From the IMG/VR virus record IMGVR_UViG_3300028030_000052, positions 1-27,423 of that record: a stretch of 27,423 bases of DNA; one strand, given 5' to 3'. This DNA comes from a virus. This document shows positions 1,135 through 25,846 of this stretch, piece by piece; the first letter of the stretch is position 1, and every line of letters begins with the position of its first letter. Position numbers and translations under genes: made by a program. The notes under the pieces were generated by a model that was not told the origin of the DNA, did no database searches, and was given only the letters and a program-made list of their open reading frames with translations.

Positions 1135-2358
1135 CTACATTTCTGCTACTGACCATATCACTGCAATCCTCTCTGGACGACTGAAAAGGCTGCCATAGTA
1201 CCACTCGGCTACCGTCCAGCCCACTTTTCCATAGGGGTCTTGTCTATCTCTTGATTGAAGAGATTGAGGTCTCTTATCTGAATAGAGGAATTTTTTACCA
1301 CCTGTACCAGATTTAAATGAAATAGTAGTAAATGAATCTCCACCTACAACAAGTAATGGGAAAGCATCATATCTGTCTTCTCCAGTTATATTTGTACTAT
1401 GTCTATATCCAGCATTTGCAGCTGTAGCTAAAGCACCAGCAGCAGCATGATAAGTCATATATTTACCTACATTAATAATTCTAAAATTACCTACTCTACC
1501 CCATTCACCATTAGCCATACCACCTGCATCTGCATATCTCTCTATTGGCTCAAAAGCTTTTTCATTAAAATAATCAGTAATTTTTTCCATTGTTTTTTTC
1601 ATTGGAGTACCAATATACATATATCTAGCATTTGGAATAGTTACTGTATCAATTAATCTTGAACCCTTAACAATAGTTGTATTATCAGGTACATCAAGGT
1701 CATCTAATTTATCAGATAAGCTTCTAAGCCCATCATATGTCACAGTAGAAATAACTCCACCACCTTCACCTGTTAGTTGGTTTAATGCTGTTGCATCACC
1801 ACCAAACATAACAGTTCCAGCATTATTAATTAAATCTATCTGTAAAGTATCTTCATATATTTGTGCTACAGCTTTATATGTTTCTCTTGTATTCCATTGA
1901 ATTAAATCTGACTCAGAATCAAATTGTTCTGCATCTTTTGTGTATTCCCAAAAAAAACCAAAGTTTTCAAAAGTACCTTCAACTTGTAATCTTGTGAAAC
2001 TTACTCTGTTTACTCTACCACCCATTTCACCTACTCTTGGTAATAATGAAGTGATAGTACCAATATCTCTACTAGAACCATATAGATTTTGAGTTACAGT
2101 ATTGTCTGTTGCATAATCAACACCAGCAGAGTTAATACCCTCTTCACCAACGTTTCTATCATCTAATAATGGTACATGTATAGTTTGAATAATTTTCTTT
2201 CCATAATTTTTAGGCATCTCAGTTGTGCTTGATAACTGTGAAAAGTAATCATATCCTACTCTATCTTCAATAGCTTTTCTAAGCCAATACTCTGTTAATG
2301 GTTGTGTTCCAATATCTGATGGATTACCCCCTAGAGGGTTATTATATGCTAAAGCCAT
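1135..2358 (-). CDS. Major capsid protein, N4 gp56 family
   Basis: A 407-residue protein that forms the icosahedral shell. Length and layout match the N4 gp56-type major capsid proteins. The N-terminus has a helix followed by a conserved 'MPKNYGKKI' segment (N-arm/E-loop side), the middle is rich in short beta segments, and the C-terminal stretch DPYGKVGWTVAEWYYG followed by RPERIAVI is the family's most recognisable part. It follows the scaffold-like gene by 10 bases, the usual order for capsid morphogenesis genes. AGGAGA precedes the ATG. The product ends in VAEM and the stop is TAG. The next gene downstream is the HNH endonuclease after 92 bases. Confidence 0.85.
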   Translation of the reverse strand: MALAYNNPLGGNPSDIGTQPLTEYWLRKAIEDRVGYDYFSQLSSTTEMPKNYGKKIIQTIHVPLLDDRNVGEEGINSAGVDYATDNTVTQNLYGSSRDIGTITSLLPRVGEMGGRVNRVSFTRLQVEGTFENFGFFWEYTKDAEQFDSESDLIQWNTRETYKAVAQIYEDTLQIDLINNAGTVMFGGDATALNQLTGEGGGVISTVTYDGLRSLSDKLDDLDVPDNTTIVKGSRLIDTVTIPNARYMYIGTPMKKTMEKITDYFNEKAFEPIERYADAGGMANGEWGRVGNFRIINVGKYMTYHAAAGALATAANAGYRHSTNITGEDRYDAFPLLVVGGDSFTTISFKSGTGGKKFLYSDKRPQSLQSRDRQDPYGKVGWTVAEWYYGSLFSRPERIAVIWSVAEM

Positions 2359-4574: not shown

Positions 4575-5304
4575 TGTATTCTTTTATATTCAAAAGTTCT
4601 ATACTTCCAAATGTATCAAAAGGCTTACTTTGGATATCTATGTCATATCCTGCATTTTGAAACACCTCTATTGACACCATCATATCTCTTTCTAAATATA
4701 TTATTTTATCTATACTCAAACTAGGGAATATATTCTCATCATATTGACTTGTGCTAACTTGTGCAATGACATCTAGGTGTGGTTCTATCAATCTTAAAGA
4801 AAATGTATTTCTTAAATCTCCAAGCTTATCTATTTTGATTGTTAATTTTATATTATAATATCCATTCTCCTTTACAGTAAATACTCCATGATGAACCCAA
4901 TCCCTATTTGTATTATATACTTCTTCGAATGTTTCAATTAAAGTCCATCGTTCGTTTACTGCTTTAAAACTATCTACCATCTCTAGAATTGTTATTTCGT
5001 TCGAACTGTTATTACCTATATTAAAATCTTTTAAAATTTTATCTGGTTGTGTAGTTACTTTATACAAAAATTTAATTCTACCTTTAATTTGTGGATTGGT
5101 ATGATACATAAAAACAGTTGAAGATATAACTATTTGTTCTCCATATTTTAATTTTATATCGTATTCATCTTGTGTATTATTATCACTAATATATAGAGTT
5201 CCAATATATGGATTATTATTTTCCAAAATAGCAACTTTAGTCCCATCTAATTGCAATTCTACCTTTTGCCCTGCTTTATTTAATAATATACTATTTATTT
5301 GCAC
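4567..5304 (-). CDS. Tail appendage protein with shared N-terminal module and jelly-roll-like C-terminus
   Basis: A 245-residue protein with two parts. Residues 1-85 (IGTLYISD, YDIKLKYGEQIVI, FMYHTNPQIKGRI) resemble the N-terminal module of the 449-residue fibre protein at 10507-11856 and probably dock the protein to the virion. The C-terminal part has alternating beta strands (GVFTVKENGYYNIKLTI, MMVSIEVFQNAGYDIDI, FGSIELLNI) in the style of C1q/TNF-like jelly rolls used for receptor binding. The start is GTG with AGGAG six bases before it, overlapping the portal gene end by 14 bases. Structural role is inferred from modules and neighbours. Confidence 0.5.
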   Translation of the reverse strand: MQINSILLNKAGQKVELQLDGTKVAILENNNPYIGTLYISDNNTQDEYDIKLKYGEQIVISSTVFMYHTNPQIKGRIKFLYKVTTQPDKILKDFNIGNNSSNEITILEMVDSFKAVNERWTLIETFEEVYNTNRDWVHHGVFTVKENGYYNIKLTIKIDKLGDLRNTFSLRLIEPHLDVIAQVSTSQYDENIFPSLSIDKIIYLERDMMVSIEVFQNAGYDIDIQSKPFDTFGSIELLNIKEYNA

Positions 5305-7234
5305 TTTTTGCTCCTGTGTCTGATTTTTCTATTTTTTGCTTAAATTCTAAATCTTTTAAGTCTTTATCAGAAGTAGCTTGTTTAGCTAATGCTATATAAT
5401 AGTCAGTCATAGCTTTCTCTCGCTCTATCTTTGCTTCTTTTTCCTTAACTTCTAACTGTTGTAATATATCTGGTTGTGGTTCAAATTCTATTATATCTTT
5501 AGCCATAGTTTCGCTACCTTCTAGTCTGCTAATTTGAGCTTGGTATATTCTTCTTTCTTCAGCGTCCATATTATTTCCAACTGTTTGCAATAAGAAAGCT
5601 AATCTATCTGCTTTAGATAATCTAACTTGTGGTGTTGATATATCTATATTCATTCCAAAGAAAGGTTGATATTGGTTTCTAGGTATTAAAACCTTATCAG
5701 TACCTGTTTTAAGCATTATCTCCTCATCTGAAAGTAATTCAATATCTAATCTAGCTGTTTTTATAGCCAATTCTATTATTCCATTAGCCATAATTCTAAG
5801 TATTGATGCTTCTCTTTTAGAAATAGCATCTACAGCACTTCTAACACCTGTAGCTGTAGAACCCATACTATCGCCTGATATACCATTTGTGTTAAAAGCT
5901 TTTATACCTGTAAGGCTTTCAGCTTCTTGGTTAAAGAAGTTAATAAAATATGGCACTGTTTGAGGTATGTCATCGAAAGTTGTTGTAAATACAGCTGTTG
6001 CTGGGTCATGTTCTGCATTAATTTCACAGTGTTCACCAACCTGTAATAACTCTTTGTTTATTCTATCAAATGCACCTTTCCTGGTTATCTTTTGTCCTAT
6101 AGCTTTTTGAGCGAATAAATCTATGCTACCTCTAAGAATAGCTGAAATAATATCTTGATTGTCTTTTATTAATTCTGCTGGACTATCTCCATATACACTA
6201 TCTGTATTAATTAAACACTGAACCAACACGAATGGAAGCTCTTGAAGCGGATAAGGATTTTCTTCCATTCTAATTATAGTATTATTAACCCAAGATATAA
6301 TTACAGGTTCTGATATACCATCTCCATTTATATCATAATAACACCAATATTCGTTCACAATTAGTGTTTTATTAGGAATGTGACTAATACCATTACTTGC
6401 TAAAGTTTCAAGGCTAGAAATACGATTATAGTCTTCTGGGATAGTTTCTAAATCACCAATAGTTAGCTTATTTAAATTTGAATATCTACCATCTTGTTTC
6501 AACTCTGATAATGTACTCTCAAATCTATGTAGAACATATTTAGCTTTAGATATATCTCCTTTACAATTAGGGTCTATAACTACATTTTCAATATCACAAA
6601 ATTCATATATTGGTTGGTTCTTGAGTATAAATTCTTGCAAAACAGTCATAGTTCCATCACCATTATTTTCTGTGATTACTTCTATTATGTTGTTTGTATC
6701 TTCATAATCATCAATAGGTATAACTGTCTCTCTTTTTTTAGTTAATCTATCCCAACTAAGTTTTATTATACAAGTACCATCATCAACAGTTTTTCTTATT
6801 AAAGTATTTATAAAATTAACTATGTTATTCTCTTTTGTGAATTGATAATTTAATAAATCTTGTAATTGAAACAAAGCACTTCTATTCATAGGCATACTAT
6901 CGGACAAGAGAAATAACTTGTCATCTGACAAAAAAGCACTCTCTAAATTAGGATATTGCCATGTAGCTTGTTTTTTGACAAGTCTATAGACAAAATTAGA
7001 TTTAGATTTACTTACTTCGAAATTAATCTCTCCATCTCTATAACTATGCCATTCTTGAATCTTAGTCAATTGATATGATAATTCCTTTTCTCCATCTTTA
7101 GCTTCATCTTTTAGCACATCTATAGGAGGTATATTCTTCCAATTAACAGTCAAATTTGGAGAACCACTATAAGCTTTATCTATCTTATAGCTAGTTTCTT
7201 TGTTTTCTATATTATAGGTTTCTTCTATTTTCAT
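5291..7234 (-). CDS. Portal protein
   Basis: A 647-residue portal, forming the dodecameric ring at one capsid vertex through which DNA is packed and ejected. Typical features are the segment NVVIDPNCKGDISKAKYV (wing/crown entry), NEYWCYYDINGDGISEPVI followed by NPYPLQELPFVLV, then YGDSPAELIKDNQDIISAI, all conserved in large P22/N4/crAss-type portals. A Gly/Ser-rich loop GDSMGSTATGVRS (tunnel loop region) follows, then long C-terminal helices rich in Lys and Glu. Length agrees with that family. AAGGAG precedes the ATG. The gene is separated from terminase by the appendage cluster, unlike the more common adjacent order. Confidence 0.82.
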   Translation of the reverse strand: MKIEETYNIENKETSYKIDKAYSGSPNLTVNWKNIPPIDVLKDEAKDGEKELSYQLTKIQEWHSYRDGEINFEVSKSKSNFVYRLVKKQATWQYPNLESAFLSDDKLFLLSDSMPMNRSALFQLQDLLNYQFTKENNIVNFINTLIRKTVDDGTCIIKLSWDRLTKKRETVIPIDDYEDTNNIIEVITENNGDGTMTVLQEFILKNQPIYEFCDIENVVIDPNCKGDISKAKYVLHRFESTLSELKQDGRYSNLNKLTIGDLETIPEDYNRISSLETLASNGISHIPNKTLIVNEYWCYYDINGDGISEPVIISWVNNTIIRMEENPYPLQELPFVLVQCLINTDSVYGDSPAELIKDNQDIISAILRGSIDLFAQKAIGQKITRKGAFDRINKELLQVGEHCEINAEHDPATAVFTTTFDDIPQTVPYFINFFNQEAESLTGIKAFNTNGISGDSMGSTATGVRSAVDAISKREASILRIMANGIIELAIKTARLDIELLSDEEIMLKTGTDKVLIPRNQYQPFFGMNIDISTPQVRLSKADRLAFLLQTVGNNMDAEERRIYQAQISRLEGSETMAKDIIEFEPQPDILQQLEVKEKEAKIEREKAMTDYYIALAKQATSDKDLKDLEFKQKIEKSDTGAKSANK

Positions 7235-15248: not shown

Positions 15249-17873
15249 TTATATAATGTAAGAGTTTTTATATCTTTTGATATTATCTAAATTATTATTA
15301 AGTTCATATATTTGTGTTCTTTTAGAATTTTGAACCACCAAATCAATCTCCTCTTGTGTATCTCCTAAAATTGTTTCATAATAAGGTCTAGTTAAATTAA
15401 TAAATTGAATTTGAGAAACACAATCCAAAACATCATCAAACTCAGAAGTAAAGCCCTTCTTACTTACTCCGTTTATCTCTTCTCTTAATTCTTCTTCCCA
15501 TACATAACCTTTATTCTCTTTGGCTCTATAAAACTTACCAGCTTGAATTTTAGGTACTACAACCATAAAGCGAACTAACTTATTTATAGTAGATGGAACT
15601 TCTTTTATTTTGAAGAAAATATCTCTTTGTATCATTTCCCTTTCTAGCCAAGAAATAAATCCACCTTGTTGTCCAGATGTTTCAATACCTACTTCTAAAG
15701 GTCTATATCTTTCTACAAATTCAAACAGTTGGTCTATATTGTCTGTCATAAGATTGTGTCCACACATACCATCTACTATATATAGGTTATGGTTATCATC
15801 GTAAGCCCATATAAGTATAGATGATAGGTCACCTTGCTCATTGTCTTTTGTAGCAAAATCAGTTGTAATATAGAAGTTATAAGCTACTTTATTAGCCATC
15901 AAATCAGTTAAATTATATTCTACAAAATCTTTATCATAATTCAATATCCTAAGTTTATCATTATCTACTTGGAGCATCATCTCTTGCATAAACCCCTCAA
16001 TAGTCAATCCACCTTCTTCTTCTAATCCCTCCTCTTCTTTTTCATTCTCCATTAATTCACTATTTTTTTCAGCACTATTATACATGTTTTTTATTGCTTC
16101 ATAAGGAAATCTATCTTCCCATGCTCCTCTAAACTCTTCTGGTTCACATGGAAACTTCTCACATATTGGTAAAACCAGATTTGAAAAGTTACCAGATTTT
16201 ACAGCTTGGCTTACTATACACCTATCATGAAAAGGTGTACCAATCAAAATCATTTTTCTTCTTGTAGGGTGTAGAGCAAAATCTATAGCCTTAAATACAG
16301 TGTTCCTGATATTCCTAAGTTTGGCAGGAGATACAGCATTCTTATCATTTAATACATCATCAATAATAGCAACTGATGGTCTTTCATTCTGTTCTCTAGC
16401 ACCTCTAATCCCTGTATTATGTGTTCTAAAATAATCATTTGTTATGTATTGTCTTTCACTATTATCAACAGCTATACATTGCGTAGGAACTGTATCTATT
16501 GATTCTATAGATATTATTGGCTGGAAAACTCTTTTATTCATTTTTTGTCTATTTGCTTTTCTTCTTAATCTAAACATTGGCATATTTAGTTTAATAAAAT
16601 TTTTTTTACATTTTGTTTTTGTTATAGATATTTTAGCAGTACCACCCAATGACAATACCAATGATTTTACATCTTCCAATAATTGCAATGAATTACTAGA
16701 ATAGCTTGATACATTTTTTGTATCAATAGTACCATTGGTATCCATTAATCCTTGTAATAAAGATAATCTCTGTTCTATTGAACCACATAAATATATAGAT
16801 GGTATATACTTATTGTTACCTACTGTGTATAAATTTAAATCTTTTATTTTATTTGTTAATCCTTTTATTGTAAAAGAACAAGTATTTTGTCTTTGTATTT
16901 GTATTTTACTAATATTATATGGAATATTTTTTATATATGTTTCTAAATCATTCTTATGACAAGTTAAAACTGACCTTTTCATTTGACCATCACCAATCAG
17001 TAATCCAAGAGTATATGGGTCTATTGGTAATTCTTTTTTTGTATATTCTAATGGTTCACAATTTTTAATAAAAAATCTATTTGCACCACTTGTTAATTTT
17101 AAGTTACATTGTAATAACTCTTTTGTTGTTATATTTTTAGGAATATACTCTATTCTATCAGGGTTATATTTTCTGACTGCTTCATATATGGCATTTATAT
17201 GGTCTTCAGTAACATCAATATATCTACCATCTAATAATTTAATTCTATACATTGATTTATTAAATATTTTACTTTTTTGAATTACCGTAGTTAATTTACC
17301 ATCAGCACCAAATATTTTATCTCCTACTTCTACCTCTTTCATTGTGATTGTTCCATTATCAGTATATAGCTTATTGGTTAATGGTATAGCTTCAGCCCCA
17401 TAACATCGAACCACTAGAGACTCACCATCTAAATTTGTTAAAACCCATCTTGTATCATTGAATTTACACTCTGGTATATATTTTTTTAAAAATTCACTAT
17501 TTTCATAAGTAAATCTCATTGCTTCTGTCATTGTTCTAACACCATTTTCAATAGTATCACTTACATATATCATAAATTTTATTTTTCCTACAGTCGGAAG
17601 TTTGCCCATTATTGCAGTATAAAAAAATAAGTTCTGAACGAAAGTTGATTTTGCCATACCTCTAGCAGCAACTATACAACTATATGCTTTTACATATAGC
17701 TCATCAAACATCATATAGTGTGCTACAGGAGTTTTATTTTCTAGGCTATCACCATATATCTGTTTTACTATTTCTATGTATTCTATGGCTTCTGTTGATG
17801 GTATATAATGTTTATAACTATCTCCATAATCAATCTCTTTTGCTAATAGTGATAATTTTTTTCTTTTAGCCAT
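15249..17873 (-). CDS. terL: Terminase large subunit, interrupted by an intein
   Basis: An 874-residue precursor; about 549 residues remain after removal of the intein, normal for a large terminase. It drives DNA into the capsid with an ATPase and cuts it with an RNase H-like nuclease. Walker A is VAARGMAKSTF (68-78). Walker B is VAIIDDV (501-507), after the conserved TGIRGAREQNERPS. A coupling motif LIGTPFHDR follows. The nuclease acidic residues appear in ITTDFATKD, VGIETSGQQGG and FDDVLDC. The start overlaps the preceding gene by 8 bases. The intein sits between Walker A and Walker B, at a highly conserved site, as inteins usually do. Confidence in terminase identity is high. Confidence 0.92.
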   Translation of the reverse strand: MAKRKKLSLLAKEIDYGDSYKHYIPSTEAIEYIEIVKQIYGDSLENKTPVAHYMMFDELYVKAYSCIVAARGMAKSTFVQNLFFYTAIMGKLPTVGKIKFMIYVSDTIENGVRTMTEAMRFTYENSEFLKKYIPECKFNDTRWVLTNLDGESLVVRCYGAEAIPLTNKLYTDNGTITMKEVEVGDKIFGADGKLTTVIQKSKIFNKSMYRIKLLDGRYIDVTEDHINAIYEAVRKYNPDRIEYIPKNITTKELLQCNLKLTSGANRFFIKNCEPLEYTKKELPIDPYTLGLLIGDGQMKRSVLTCHKNDLETYIKNIPYNISKIQIQRQNTCSFTIKGLTNKIKDLNLYTVGNNKYIPSIYLCGSIEQRLSLLQGLMDTNGTIDTKNVSSYSSNSLQLLEDVKSLVLSLGGTAKISITKTKCKKNFIKLNMPMFRLRRKANRQKMNKRVFQPIISIESIDTVPTQCIAVDNSERQYITNDYFRTHNTGIRGAREQNERPSVAIIDDVLNDKNAVSPAKLRNIRNTVFKAIDFALHPTRRKMILIGTPFHDRCIVSQAVKSGNFSNLVLPICEKFPCEPEEFRGAWEDRFPYEAIKNMYNSAEKNSELMENEKEEEGLEEEGGLTIEGFMQEMMLQVDNDKLRILNYDKDFVEYNLTDLMANKVAYNFYITTDFATKDNEQGDLSSILIWAYDDNHNLYIVDGMCGHNLMTDNIDQLFEFVERYRPLEVGIETSGQQGGFISWLEREMIQRDIFFKIKEVPSTINKLVRFMVVVPKIQAGKFYRAKENKGYVWEEELREEINGVSKKGFTSEFDDVLDCVSQIQFINLTRPYYETILGDTQEEIDLVVQNSKRTQIYELNNNLDNIKRYKNSYII
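16416..17390 (-). mobile_element. LAGLIDADG intein inside the large terminase
   Basis: Residues 162-486 of the precursor (325 residues). Block A is AIPLTNKLYTDNG, then VGDKIFGADGKLTTV. Block B is GRYIDVTEDHINAIY. The homing endonuclease motifs are YTLGLLIGDG and LLQGLMDTNG. Block F is TQCIAVD and block G ends YFRTHN, followed by Thr as the first C-extein residue. The first residue is Ala, so there is no N-terminal Cys or Ser nucleophile. A Cys at the block F position usually held by Asp, and Thr before the last His-Asn, resemble class 3 inteins, but the class 3 Trp in block B is Asn here. Boundaries are from motif alignment and could shift by one residue. Confidence 0.85.
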
Positions 17874-20341: not shown

Positions 20342-20370
20342 TTGACAATTAATCATAGATTAATTATAGC
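20342..20370 (+). promoter_or_regulatory. Sigma70 promoter with operator-like inverted repeat
   Basis: A perfect -35 (TTGACA, 20342-20347), 17-base spacer and -10 (TATAGC, 20365-20370) precede the RNA polymerase gene. The spacer holds an 8-base perfect inverted repeat, AATTAATC (20347-20354) and GATTAATT (20358-20365) with a 3-base centre, reaching both boxes. A dimeric repressor bound there would block host RNA polymerase. The leader to the GTG start is about 75 bases. Confidence 0.68.
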
Positions 20371-20450
20371 TTTTAAAGTCTATTTTGTCAAGTTTAACCC
20401 TATACAACAAGATTTGTTACCTTGTTGTATTTAACCTAAAAGGATATATT

Positions 20451-22838
20451 GTGCAAACATTTTATACACAACAACTAAACAACCTCAGACAAGCTATTAT
20501 TAATGATGATTTCATGATTGTAGCTACAATCATGAATGATTTTAACAATTTCTTATCTTTATCTAAAGATGAAATTGAATATATTAAATCTTTAGGATTT
20601 TATGTGCCAGAAGCAGAACCGGAGTTTTGTTTTAATTATAAATTAGATTTAGTTAAATATTTATATAGTGAAAACTATGTAGATACTTTTTTAAATCCTT
20701 CTGCTTTTAAAGCTAAAGTTTCTAAAAGAACCAAATCTAAACCTAGATTTATTAGAAGAAGAACCGTCAAACTTAACAAAGTTCAAAAAGAGATATATTC
20801 AATTATTTCTAAAATTGAGTCTGAATTTAGTTATAGGTTACTTGATTTGCAAGTTAAAAAGTATATTATTCAACTTAAACCAGATGATTATAAGAGATTT
20901 TCTAAATTCATTTATAGAGTTATGTCTGGAATTGAAATTAAAGTTCCTAAACAGACTTTGATTGGTAAATTAAGATTTAAGCTTCCTAGATTACCATTGA
21001 AAGACATCAAAGACAGTCGCTTATATGAAGATGTTCTCGTTAAGGTTGCTTCTAACCTTATTCAAATACTTCTAAATAAAGAAGTATTTAAATCTGAACA
21101 GTCTCGTCATGTAAACAGACAAACAGGTGAGTTTTCTTCTGTAATTTGGGTATATAGACCTGATAATATTAAATTTAATATTGCTAATTCTGGTAAAAAT
21201 AGCTATGTTGTTGACCCTCATAAAATTAGAATTAGAGGTACAACCAAATTAGTTTCTGTTAATTCGCCTATGAAGAAATTCATAGACAAATATACATCTC
21301 ATATTAATGAGACTATCAGATTTAAGAGAAGACCAACGGAGCTAGTCGATATATATTTTGGGTTACTTTATTATAAAGAAAATGTAGCTAATCCGAAAGG
21401 AAAAGAGTCAATCTTTGATTTGAAAGACAGACTCTTAGGCTATAGAAAGAATTATGATGTTATTCAAAATATGTCTCTTGATATTATGGAGAATAAGATG
21501 TACTATTGTACTAGATGTAGAATGTATTCTACTATTACTCATAGTGGTTTTAGTTTACATGGTGACAAGTTCGAGTCATCAAACAGAGAGTGTGCTAAAG
21601 AGTACACTCTTGAACCAGATGATATAAGAAGAATGAAATCTCACTGTGTTCAACTTCTTAGTGATAAGAAGTTATCTCAACAACAAGCAGAGCCATTATA
21701 TAAACCAGAGATGGCTAAACAACTTAGAGAACCACTTACAAAATTCTACAAGGATTTATTATTGTTTAGTAAATGGTTTAGAATCAATAACCCAGAGTTT
21801 AAAAGTGAATACAAATTTTCAATGACTATTGTCAGAGAGTATTGTCTTTATAATAAACTTGACCATAAAAATCTTATTCGTAAATATGGAAAACATGTTT
21901 ATATGATGGAATTAAGTAAAGAGTTAAGTAAGAAAGTTGGTGATAAATCTCGTTTTCTATTAAAAGAGGATACCACTAATATGGGTATCCTACTTTCTAG
22001 TCTTGCCTTCAAATCTAAACCAATGGCTAGAGGAATAAATATTCTTAAAGGACAAGAAGATATAGCTGATACTCATCAGCTTAACCTTAACTTTATTAAT
22101 AGTCATGGGTATAATTATACTAGAGATGATATAAAAAGTATCTTTAGTAATCCTCTTAATCATGGTGGAGGTATTAAAGCTTTATCTAAAAGATTAGGTA
22201 TTGGACTTAGAAGTTTAAGAAATTTTATAATTGATAATTATGGAATTTCTTTTCTTAATTTCAATATTATAGCTTCATGGATTAAGAATAATTACCCAAA
22301 TAATGGTGTTGTTACTTGGAAGTTATTTGATGATTTTGTGGTTAGAAGTGTAGCCTATTCAGAGAGTCAAAAGTTGTCTGTTTATGTTATTGATAAGCCA
22401 GAAATGGGTAGAGATGGAAAACTTTACCCACGATGGAAAACTGTGGAAATGATACAGGATATGCCTATATCTCGTATAGGTGTAGAATTTCTTAACACAG
22501 GAGATAAAAGCTTAAGAATTAATGGTGGCTATGCAAATGGTGACCATGCTTATGAAGCTTTTATTGTTAGAAAAGTCTTAAGATTTTTCTTTAGAACCAA
22601 TAGACCTATCTTTACCACTCATGATGCTTTTGATATGCGTGGTAGAGATTTATTTATTCTTGAACGCTTACTTAGTAAGTATTTTAAGAAAGAAGTGGAT
22701 AGACCAATAGGTTATTATGAAGATATGTGCAATCAAATTGCTAAACAGTTAGGTATTGAACCACCTGTGCTATATGAAGAAGAAGATAAATTATCTTCTA
22801 AAGATATAGCTGACATAGTTCGTTGTATCATACCATAA
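20451..22838 (+). CDS. Divergent single-subunit (T7-type) RNA polymerase
   Basis: A 795-residue protein that I read as a phage single-subunit RNA polymerase, T7 RNA polymerase being 883. Candidate catalytic motifs are in family order. CTRCRMY (353-359) aligns with the DxxGRxY motif, with Cys for Asp and Gly. DTTNMGILLSSL (from Asp507) matches motif A. RDDIKSIFSNPLNHGGG (558-574) matches motif B, with Lys562. THDAF (His724-Asp725) matches motif C (HDSF). The rest is not obviously similar to T7. I chose GTG at 20451, with AAAAGGAT six bases before it; a TTG 22 codons earlier lacks a site. It would transcribe phage genes from its own promoters. A family A DNA polymerase is less likely because motif C is HDAF rather than HDE. 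Confidence 0.62.
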   Translation: MQTFYTQQLNNLRQAIINDDFMIVATIMNDFNNFLSLSKDEIEYIKSLGFYVPEAEPEFCFNYKLDLVKYLYSENYVDTFLNPSAFKAKVSKRTKSKPRFIRRRTVKLNKVQKEIYSIISKIESEFSYRLLDLQVKKYIIQLKPDDYKRFSKFIYRVMSGIEIKVPKQTLIGKLRFKLPRLPLKDIKDSRLYEDVLVKVASNLIQILLNKEVFKSEQSRHVNRQTGEFSSVIWVYRPDNIKFNIANSGKNSYVVDPHKIRIRGTTKLVSVNSPMKKFIDKYTSHINETIRFKRRPTELVDIYFGLLYYKENVANPKGKESIFDLKDRLLGYRKNYDVIQNMSLDIMENKMYYCTRCRMYSTITHSGFSLHGDKFESSNRECAKEYTLEPDDIRRMKSHCVQLLSDKKLSQQQAEPLYKPEMAKQLREPLTKFYKDLLLFSKWFRINNPEFKSEYKFSMTIVREYCLYNKLDHKNLIRKYGKHVYMMELSKELSKKVGDKSRFLLKEDTTNMGILLSSLAFKSKPMARGINILKGQEDIADTHQLNLNFINSHGYNYTRDDIKSIFSNPLNHGGGIKALSKRLGIGLRSLRNFIIDNYGISFLNFNIIASWIKNNYPNNGVVTWKLFDDFVVRSVAYSESQKLSVYVIDKPEMGRDGKLYPRWKTVEMIQDMPISRIGVEFLNTGDKSLRINGGYANGDHAYEAFIVRKVLRFFFRTNRPIFTTHDAFDMRGRDLFILERLLSKYFKKEVDRPIGYYEDMCNQIAKQLGIEPPVLYEEEDKLSSKDIADIVRCIIP

Positions 22839-23182: not shown

Positions 23183-23662
23183 ATGACTAAAAAGCAATTA
23201 ATGTCAGAGCTTACAAAACTAAATGTTGATTTCAAAAAAAGTTGGAGTAAAAAAAAGTTGGAGGAAGTATTCTTGTTTGTTGAACCGAATAATAGTGCTG
23301 TTGTAAAAACAACATTAGAGAATGGTTCAAAAAAAGATTATGCTTTGTTTGCAGATTTGAAAGTTAATCGTATGATAAATGAAGTTAAACGCTTGAATTT
23401 GCACAAGATGACTTCTACACAGCTTGAAGCATTAGCTATGGAACGAGCTAAGGCTGATTTAGAGCAAGGTTTATTTGAAAAGCATGAGCTTAATAAAAAA
23501 GCTTCTGGGAAGTTATGGTATTTAAACGAGTGCTTAGCAGTCTCTAAGAGTGTTGAGGAGGCTTGTGAGTACTACGAAGAAGAATATCAACTTTCTGATA
23601 TGCCTAATAAAGCAGATAGAAGAAAATTAATTTCTTCCAAGGCTGAAAGTCTCTGGAAGTAA
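23183..23662 (+). CDS. Unknown protein with SAP/HeH-like N-terminus
   Basis: A 159-residue, highly charged protein. The first 30 residues (TKKQLMSELTKLNVDF, then SKKKLEEVF) have the helix-turn-helix spacing of SAP/HeH-type nucleic-acid-binding motifs often seen in small phage proteins. The remainder is helical and acidic (EEACEYYEEEYQLSD) with a basic end. No named family. AAAAGGAT precedes the ATG. As the first of the small forward genes it is probably early and may bind DNA or RNA. Confidence 0.6.
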   Translation: MTKKQLMSELTKLNVDFKKSWSKKKLEEVFLFVEPNNSAVVKTTLENGSKKDYALFADLKVNRMINEVKRLNLHKMTSTQLEALAMERAKADLEQGLFEKHELNKKASGKLWYLNECLAVSKSVEEACEYYEEEYQLSDMPNKADRRKLISSKAESLWK

Positions 23663-24666: not shown

Positions 24667-24861
24667 ATGAGATACAAAATATTACCATTAACATTAGATG
24701 AGTTTAAAGAGAGATACAATGTTTTATGTGAAACAATAGCTTTTGCTTATGGGAGATACCTTTTAACAAACATAAATACACATCACTATAATGATGCAAC
24801 TATCAAAGAGTGGTATAGAAATCAATTTTCATCACTCTTAACCAGCAACACACAATATTAA
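24667..24861 (+). CDS. Small protein of unknown function
   Basis: A 64-residue protein, AAGGAT before its ATG. Helical, with LTLDEFKERYNVLCETIAFA and a Tyr/His/Asn-rich second half. No family was recognised. The 109-base leader before it carries only short inverted repeats around 24575-24600. Confidence 0.5.
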   Translation: MRYKILPLTLDEFKERYNVLCETIAFAYGRYLLTNINTHHYNDATIKEWYRNQFSSLLTSNTQY

Positions 24862-25558: not shown

Positions 25559-25615
25559 ATGAATAATAAAAATATAAAACAAATTTCCTTAGATGTTGGT
25601 AATATTTTTATTTGA
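25559..25615 (+). pseudogene. Eighteen-codon frame, possible remnant or leader peptide
   Basis: ATG at 25559, with AAGAGG before it, encodes MNNKNIKQISLDVGNIFI and then TGA. The segment ISLDVGN resembles the first strand of actin-like partition ATPases (ParM type), but nothing more follows in frame that is recognisable. It could be a remnant of a deleted gene, a leader peptide, or chance. Confidence 0.2.
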
Positions 25616-25629
25616 AGTCGAAGCTTTGA

Positions 25630-25846
25630 TGTTCCCAACTCTTCGGAACATATACATGTTCCCAAATTTCTCGGAACATGTTTAAAGCCCATAATATAGG
25701 CATTTGAAATCTTTTTTTAGATGTTCCCAACTATACTTGTTCCCAACTCTTCGGAACATGTTTTAAACTCCACAATATAGGCATTTGAATAACTTGTTCC
25801 CATGTTCCCTATATATTATAATATATAAATAATCTATTTGGGAACA
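25630..25846. repeat. TGTTCCC / GGGAACA repeat array
   Basis: TGTTCCC occurs six times forward (25630, 25657, 25722, 25738, 25795, 25803) and GGAACA four times in the opposite sense (25645, 25673, 25753, 25840). Three pairs form imperfect inverted repeats of 21-24 bases. A 52-base block (25657-25708) is repeated at an 81-base step (25738-25789), including the identical AATATAGGCATTTGAA. The array lies immediately upstream of the ribbon-helix-helix-like gene and its -10 box, as expected for iterons of an origin or operators for that protein. Confidence 0.78.

Follow-up and report, generated by a model that had tools for sequence, protein, structure and literature searches.

Several types of RNA polymerase of the T7-like superfamily are known from phages. 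T7 RNA polymerase is one polypeptide in which the DX2GR motif (DWRGR) is followed by motifs A, B, and C and which carries the catalytic residues in them. Its Tyr639 closes the O helix with the hydroxyl touching the ribose 2'-OH, and the Y639F mutation lowers the discrimination of dNTPs (PMC6511863, PMC4551944). The mutants Y639F, Y639V, and Y639L are active, so catalysis has no strict need for this tyrosine; it is the residue altered by engineers for 2'-modified RNA, and R425, G542, and H784 are the other three ribose-surrounding residues that were randomised (PMC4551944). N4 RNAPII (gp15, RNAP1, and gp16, RNAP2; PDB 6dt7, 6dt8, and 6dta) belongs to the same superfamily; it consists of two subunits split between DX2GR (DKRGR) and motif A, and it has Tyr in motif B. 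The N4 virion RNA polymerase (mini-vRNAP), a giant virion protein, is highly diverged and has TX2GR in place of DX2GR, so the Asp is not found throughout the superfamily (PMC4496689). According to a 2015 survey, a heterodimeric RNAPII accompanied the virion RNA polymerase in all but two of the phages that had the latter, and an order of events was inferred from this (PMC4496689). The Alteromonas podovirus R22Y is reported to have two RNA polymerases (PMC11705849).

Here, we analysed a stretch of viral DNA of 27,423 nucleotides (IMG/VR record IMGVR_UViG_3300028030_000052; hereafter, the window), in which a 795-codon frame had been read as a very divergent single-subunit RNA polymerase with an altered first motif. 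Our results suggested that this frame very probably codes for a DNA-dependent RNA polymerase of the T7/N4 superfamily that is active, consists of one polypeptide, and takes the place of N4 RNAPII in middle transcription in an N4-like (Schitoviridae-related) phage.

The polymerase gene and its phage

The window is a fragment of 27 kb, and its gene complement is incomplete. Capsid, portal, and terminase genes of the Schitoviridae/N4 type were present in it (Table 1). The polymerase frame was unbroken and began with GTG; this start is supported by the sequence AAAAGGAT just upstream. A terminase-based scan yielded a second contig, IMGVR_UViG_3300028030_000011 (76,293 bases; G001). A similar sequence, AAAGGATA, precedes the polymerase gene of G001 and also stands before other genes (families D7 and D14). 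The LAGLIDADG intein of the window terminase is missing from the 552-aa terminase of G001.

Table 1 Features of the window and of the polymerase encoded in it (residue numbers are those of the window polymerase).
Feature	Position	Strand	Basis or remark
Major capsid protein, Schitoviridae type	1135..2358	-	46-47% identity to classified phages
Portal protein, Schitoviridae type	5291..7234	-	Homology
Large terminase containing a LAGLIDADG intein	15249..17873	-	Homology
Perfect sigma70-type promoter, TTGACA-17-TATAAT	20363..20391	-	Conserved in G001
Likely ribosome-binding site, AAAAGGAT	20438..20445	+	Upstream sequence
Single-polypeptide RNA polymerase, T7/N4 superfamily, 795 aa	20451..22838	+	ORF, homology, profiles, alignment, tree
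CTRCR at residues 353-357, replacing DX2GR	21507..21521	+	Alignments, profiles; Arg357 = T7 R425
Motif A, DTTNMG, residues 507-512	21969..21986	+	D507 = T7 D537, G512 = T7 G542
Motif B, RDDIKSIFSNPLNHG, residues 558-572	22122..22166	+	R558 = T7 R627, K562 = T7 K631
W623 = T7 W727	22317..22319	+	MAFFT alignment
Segment 628-694, motif B to H699	22332..22532	+	Alignment; position of the T7 specificity loop
H699 = T7 H784	22545..22547	+	Alignments
Motif C His-Asp, H724-D725 = T7 H811-D812	22620..22625	+	Alignments

Homologues of the window polymerase

The window protein alone gave no significant match in Pfam, PHROGs, or the PDB sequences, T7 RNA polymerase included. On the other hand, tblastn against 50,697 phage records matched two Alteromonas podoviruses, V19 (vB_AmeP_PT11-V19; E = 4e-13 over residues 463-774) and R22Y (E = 1e-10), and the matched V19 gene (gp85, WAK44711.1) is annotated 'RNA polymerase'. 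The V19 protein matched PHROG 2051 (RNA polymerase) at 1.5e-15, where N4 gp16 scores 5e-172; PHROG 414 (RNA polymerase, with T7 RNAP as a full-length member) at 1.5e-12; and N4 RNAP2 (6dt7_B) in the PDB at 0.001. The V19 and R22Y proteins resemble the window protein in being single polypeptides with the same motif order and His at the place of Tyr639, and their phages are N4-like. They differ from it in having SGSGR instead of CTRCR, in an identity of about 21-24%, and in being about 125 residues shorter.

The closest relative was the 704-aa polymerase of G001, with 32% identity and a tblastn E-value of 1e-64. Its gene lies in the same place, adjoining the terminase genes, and it shares LNHG in motif B and a divergent sigma70-type promoter with the window, whereas its first motif is canonical and HDNNG stands at motif C. 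A profile of the window and G001 proteins matched a profile of V19 and R22Y at E = 6e-19 over 577 columns. The profile of all four members (window, G001, V19, and R22Y) matched the N4-type RNAP2 at E = 3e-14, and among all PDB chains it ranked N4 RNAP2 (6dt7_B) first at 1.7e-4 and T7 RNAP third at 1.4. Significant homology to accepted T7-like polymerases was found through V19, R22Y, and the profiles.

Further relatives were sought in other collections. Searches of the viral contigs with the window protein, with the window, V19, and R22Y alignment, and with the V19 and R22Y alignment found no relative; the window and G001 query found G001 as the sole match in the viral contigs. No relative was found in the genome contigs (two queries) or in the plasmids.

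Motif columns

A MAFFT alignment of the window branch, T7, and RNAP1 and RNAP2 of N4, PT15-A5, and Littlefix placed C353-R357, D507/G512, R558/K562, and H724/D725 of the window protein in the columns of T7 residues 421-425, D537/G542, R627/K631, and H811/D812, respectively. The motif residues do sit at the numbers given in the initial annotation, and their columns match DX2GR and motifs A, B, and C of T7; the aspartates of motifs A and C and the Arg and Lys of motif B were all present. D507, G512, D540, K562, H699, and D725 were identical in 35/35 rows of a second alignment, in which the columns of R558 and H724 were at least 90% identical. This agreement with T7 and N4, the profile matches, and the tree described below bore out the assignment as a very divergent single-subunit RNA polymerase. 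The enzyme would have the standard two-metal palm formed by D507 and D725, with the usual placement of R558/K562, H724, R357, G512, and H699. Segment 628-694 was longer in the alignment than its counterpart in N4 RNAPII, where a shorter segment lies ahead of the His784 equivalent, and this longer segment may contact the promoter directly.

The altered DX2GR motif

The identification of CTRCR as the DX2GR motif is supported most directly by the pairwise comparison with G001, which has the canonical DSRGR in the same column. The four-member profile also placed CTRCR on DKRGR of the N4-type RNAP1 (E = 0.003), and the window and G001 profile paired window residues 352-401 with T7 residues 420-466, a match that is weak by itself (E = 0.31). 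The alteration of the motif, with C353 and C356 replacing Asp and Gly, was thus confirmed. CTRCR keeps only the Arg of the motif; the membership of the window polymerase in the T7-like superfamily rests on homology of the sequences, not on DX2GR.

To see how unusual the change is, we took 60 distinct RNAP1, unsplit, or T7-like proteins from 70 viral contigs gathered by an RNAP2 scan. The tally was made by pattern, because the RNAP1 rows were misplaced when the two halves, RNAP1 and RNAP2, were aligned jointly. D-X-[RK]-G-[RKT] was matched by 58 of the 60, and the Asp and Arg were kept in all 60, including the two exceptions DKRLR and DNGGR; these two are RNAP1 proteins (L062:4972-5994 and L064:5056-5943, respectively). 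Cys in the place of Asp was found only in the window protein and in none of the 60 homologues. Within the branch, this place is taken by D (G001), S (V19 and R22Y), and C (window). Therefore, the modified first motif proposed for the new branch holds for the window protein, but the double Cys is not a trait of the branch, the other members of which have D or S, and G. R357 is retained, so none of these results demonstrates that the contact with template or promoter is modified. The most economical reading of the Cys pair would be a relaxed constraint at the Asp position together with a Gly-to-Cys change that the turn tolerates.

Absence of the Tyr639 equivalent

The end of the O helix reads PLNHGG in the window protein, GLNHGQ in G001, and PLLHGG in V19 and R22Y. 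The place of Tyr639 is occupied by His or Asn in 4/4 branch members (N570/H571 in the aligned window protein), and no gap placement yields Tyr; in the 35-row alignment, this column is Tyr in 33/33 rows outside the branch. The AlphaFold model predicted a helix across residues 558-570. The equivalents of T7 R425, G542, and H784 were retained as R357, G512, and H699. As judged from the alignments, the loss of the Tyr639 equivalent is a branch-wide oddity more notable than the Cys pair. Ribose selection probably proceeds by different means in the branch, or is looser. A natural branch that dispenses with Tyr639 while keeping the other three residues could be a useful starting enzyme. We tentatively consider, as a possibility with the weight of opinion against it, that the branch is a third natural T7-like lineage, serving as the middle enzyme of some phages with a virion RNA polymerase, which selects ribose via His rather than Tyr639 and in one line of which the DX2GR loop was rebuilt on a Cys pair. 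If so, such enzymes might naturally accept 2'-modified or deoxy nucleotides.

Predicted structure

Structure prediction, proposed at the outset as a check, gave a model whose best structural matches were single-subunit RNA polymerases. The AlphaFold input was an alignment of 35 sequences, consisting of the window protein and viral-contig proteins, with T7/N4-type enzymes included and RNAP1 rows excluded; the predicted fold is therefore confirmatory rather than independent. The mean pLDDT was 61.8 and the pTM 0.60; block values were 71-95 over residues 381-600, except for one block of 58, and 83-92 over 701-750, whereas the N-terminal 250 residues were modelled with low confidence. With two sequences only, the pLDDT was 33.8. 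The best Foldseek matches were POLRMT, Rpo41, and T7 RNAP (E to 2.6e-12), and among viral proteins they were RNA polymerases (E to 8e-14), with TM-scores mostly of 0.33-0.40; the input alignment contained such enzymes in both cases.

Phylogenetic position and alternative explanations

A tree of 40 proteins based on 261 palm/fingers columns united the window, G001, V19, and R22Y proteins in one group with support of 100/99. Opposite this group were 24 N4 RNAPII-type proteins (20 heterodimer RNAP2 and 4 unsplit N4-like proteins) and 12 T7-like proteins, the latter on one side of a branch supported by 98/88. The window polymerase did not group with N4 RNAP2, but its attachment shifts when rows are omitted: in a tree without V19 and R22Y, the window and G001 pair moved beside the T7-like group. 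We read the four proteins as a deep branch outside N4 RNAPII and the T7-like group, with long branches and a possible distortion of the tree. The distinctness claimed for a new branch was thus upheld. Its novelty was not, as the branch also occurs in two Alteromonas N4-like phages, and one copy is already annotated 'RNA polymerase'; the branch is little described, not unknown.

An ordinary diverged N4 RNAPII, with the RNAP1 and RNAP2 halves fused and no separate branch, is an unlikely explanation, although N4 RNAP2 is the nearest solved relative, the genome is N4-like, and unsplit N4 RNAPII-like proteins do exist (L068-L072, 563-641 aa). These unsplit proteins retain DXRGR and the Tyr that the branch lacks, and the tree sets the four members apart (100/99) from 20 RNAP2, 4 unsplit, and 12 T7-like proteins, even if rooting and long branches leave doubt. 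It is very unlikely that the motif changes mark a loss of function, leaving a degenerate, inactive, or repurposed polymerase such as a primase-like protein or a regulatory factor. The changed DX2GR and the absent Tyr639 equivalent would fit such a loss, but the 795-aa frame is unbroken, all four proteins, far apart in sequence as they are, retain the catalytic Asp, Arg, Lys, and His, and no other RNAPII candidate was found in G001. A family A DNA polymerase shares the palm motifs, and His for Tyr at the sugar gate could admit dNTPs. Family A DNA polymerases have Glu at the place of T7 G542. The window protein has G512 there, it also has H699 at the place of T7 H784, and its best neighbours in sequence and structure are RNA polymerases, so we give this reading almost no credence.

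The possible metal-binding site is suggested by the CXXC itself. As a structural site, it would bind zinc through C353 and C356, with H370, C381, or C399 as possible further ligands, and would hold the template-side loop in place of the Asp/Gly turn. Two Cys stand exactly at the two conserved positions of the five-residue motif, the 795-residue protein has only 8 Cys in all, and H370 and C399 are common to the window protein and G001. Nevertheless, CTRCR contains the only CXXC of the window protein, G001 has neither C381 nor Cys at 353/356, no close relative that could show co-conservation of the ligands was found in the collections searched, and the model is unsure in this area (mean pLDDT of 67 at 351-360 and 46 at 361-370). 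We regard the metal site as improbable; the initial annotation was right for the most part, but on this point it went into too much detail.

Transcription of the phage genome

The giant virion RNA polymerase was not found in the window, a 27-kb fragment. In contrast, G001 carries a 3,638-aa N4-type virion RNA polymerase, which single-sequence queries missed and a profile search detected (PHROG 2206, E = 1e-76), and a frame of 2,083-2,087 aa in V19 and R22Y matches the virion polymerase profile. In the G001 phage type, the virion enzyme is thus additional to the branch polymerase. G001 gave no RNAP1 or RNAP2 match with the PHROG 2051 and 2166 profiles, which detected the positive controls N4 and an unsplit N4-like contig. 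No RNAP1 and RNAP2 pair was found, the window having one 795-aa ORF for the polymerase. Because a virion RNA polymerase but neither RNAP1 nor RNAP2 was detected in G001, the single polypeptide probably fills the role of N4 RNAPII, with which it would presumably share middle transcription; in this branch, one polypeptide would replace the pair. The combination of a virion RNA polymerase with a second enzyme of one polypeptide makes this branch an exception to the survey pattern, one that bears on how the RNAPII split arose. By analogy with N4 (PMC4496689), early genes would be transcribed by the virion RNA polymerase, middle genes by the window enzyme, and late genes by the host polymerase.

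The sigma70-type promoter agrees with late transcription by the host polymerase. It is the only perfect one in the window (0.11 expected by chance), and it diverges from the polymerase gene toward the late (head/packaging) genes. A dyad, ATTAATC-ATA-GATTAAT, adjoins it, promoter and dyad lying within 20349-20391, and G001 has the promoter with a matching dyad, GTAATC-GTA-GATTAC (L003:4429-4457). The promoter and dyad look like a regulated late promoter. No cognate promoter of the window polymerase was found among repeats and upstream motifs.

Other observations

To the right of the polymerase, the small genes at 23183-23662 and 24667-24861 resemble L003:1341-1883 and 910-1341, respectively, indicating that the gene order is conserved; the 24667-24861 gene is much shorter than its L003 relative. 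A NUMOD/I-HmuI-like homing endonuclease gene (275-1042) lies beside the capsid gene. In the N4-like contigs L077, L078, and L033, the RNAP2 gene is split into two frames, and in L077 and L078 the break immediately precedes the tyrosine of motif B, as an intron or an inserted gene would produce. Finally, repeated GTTCCC/GGAACA hairpins (ATGTTCCCAACTCTTCGGAACAT) occupy 25589-25809, an AT-rich stretch with no evident gene, and are a possible origin or operator array.
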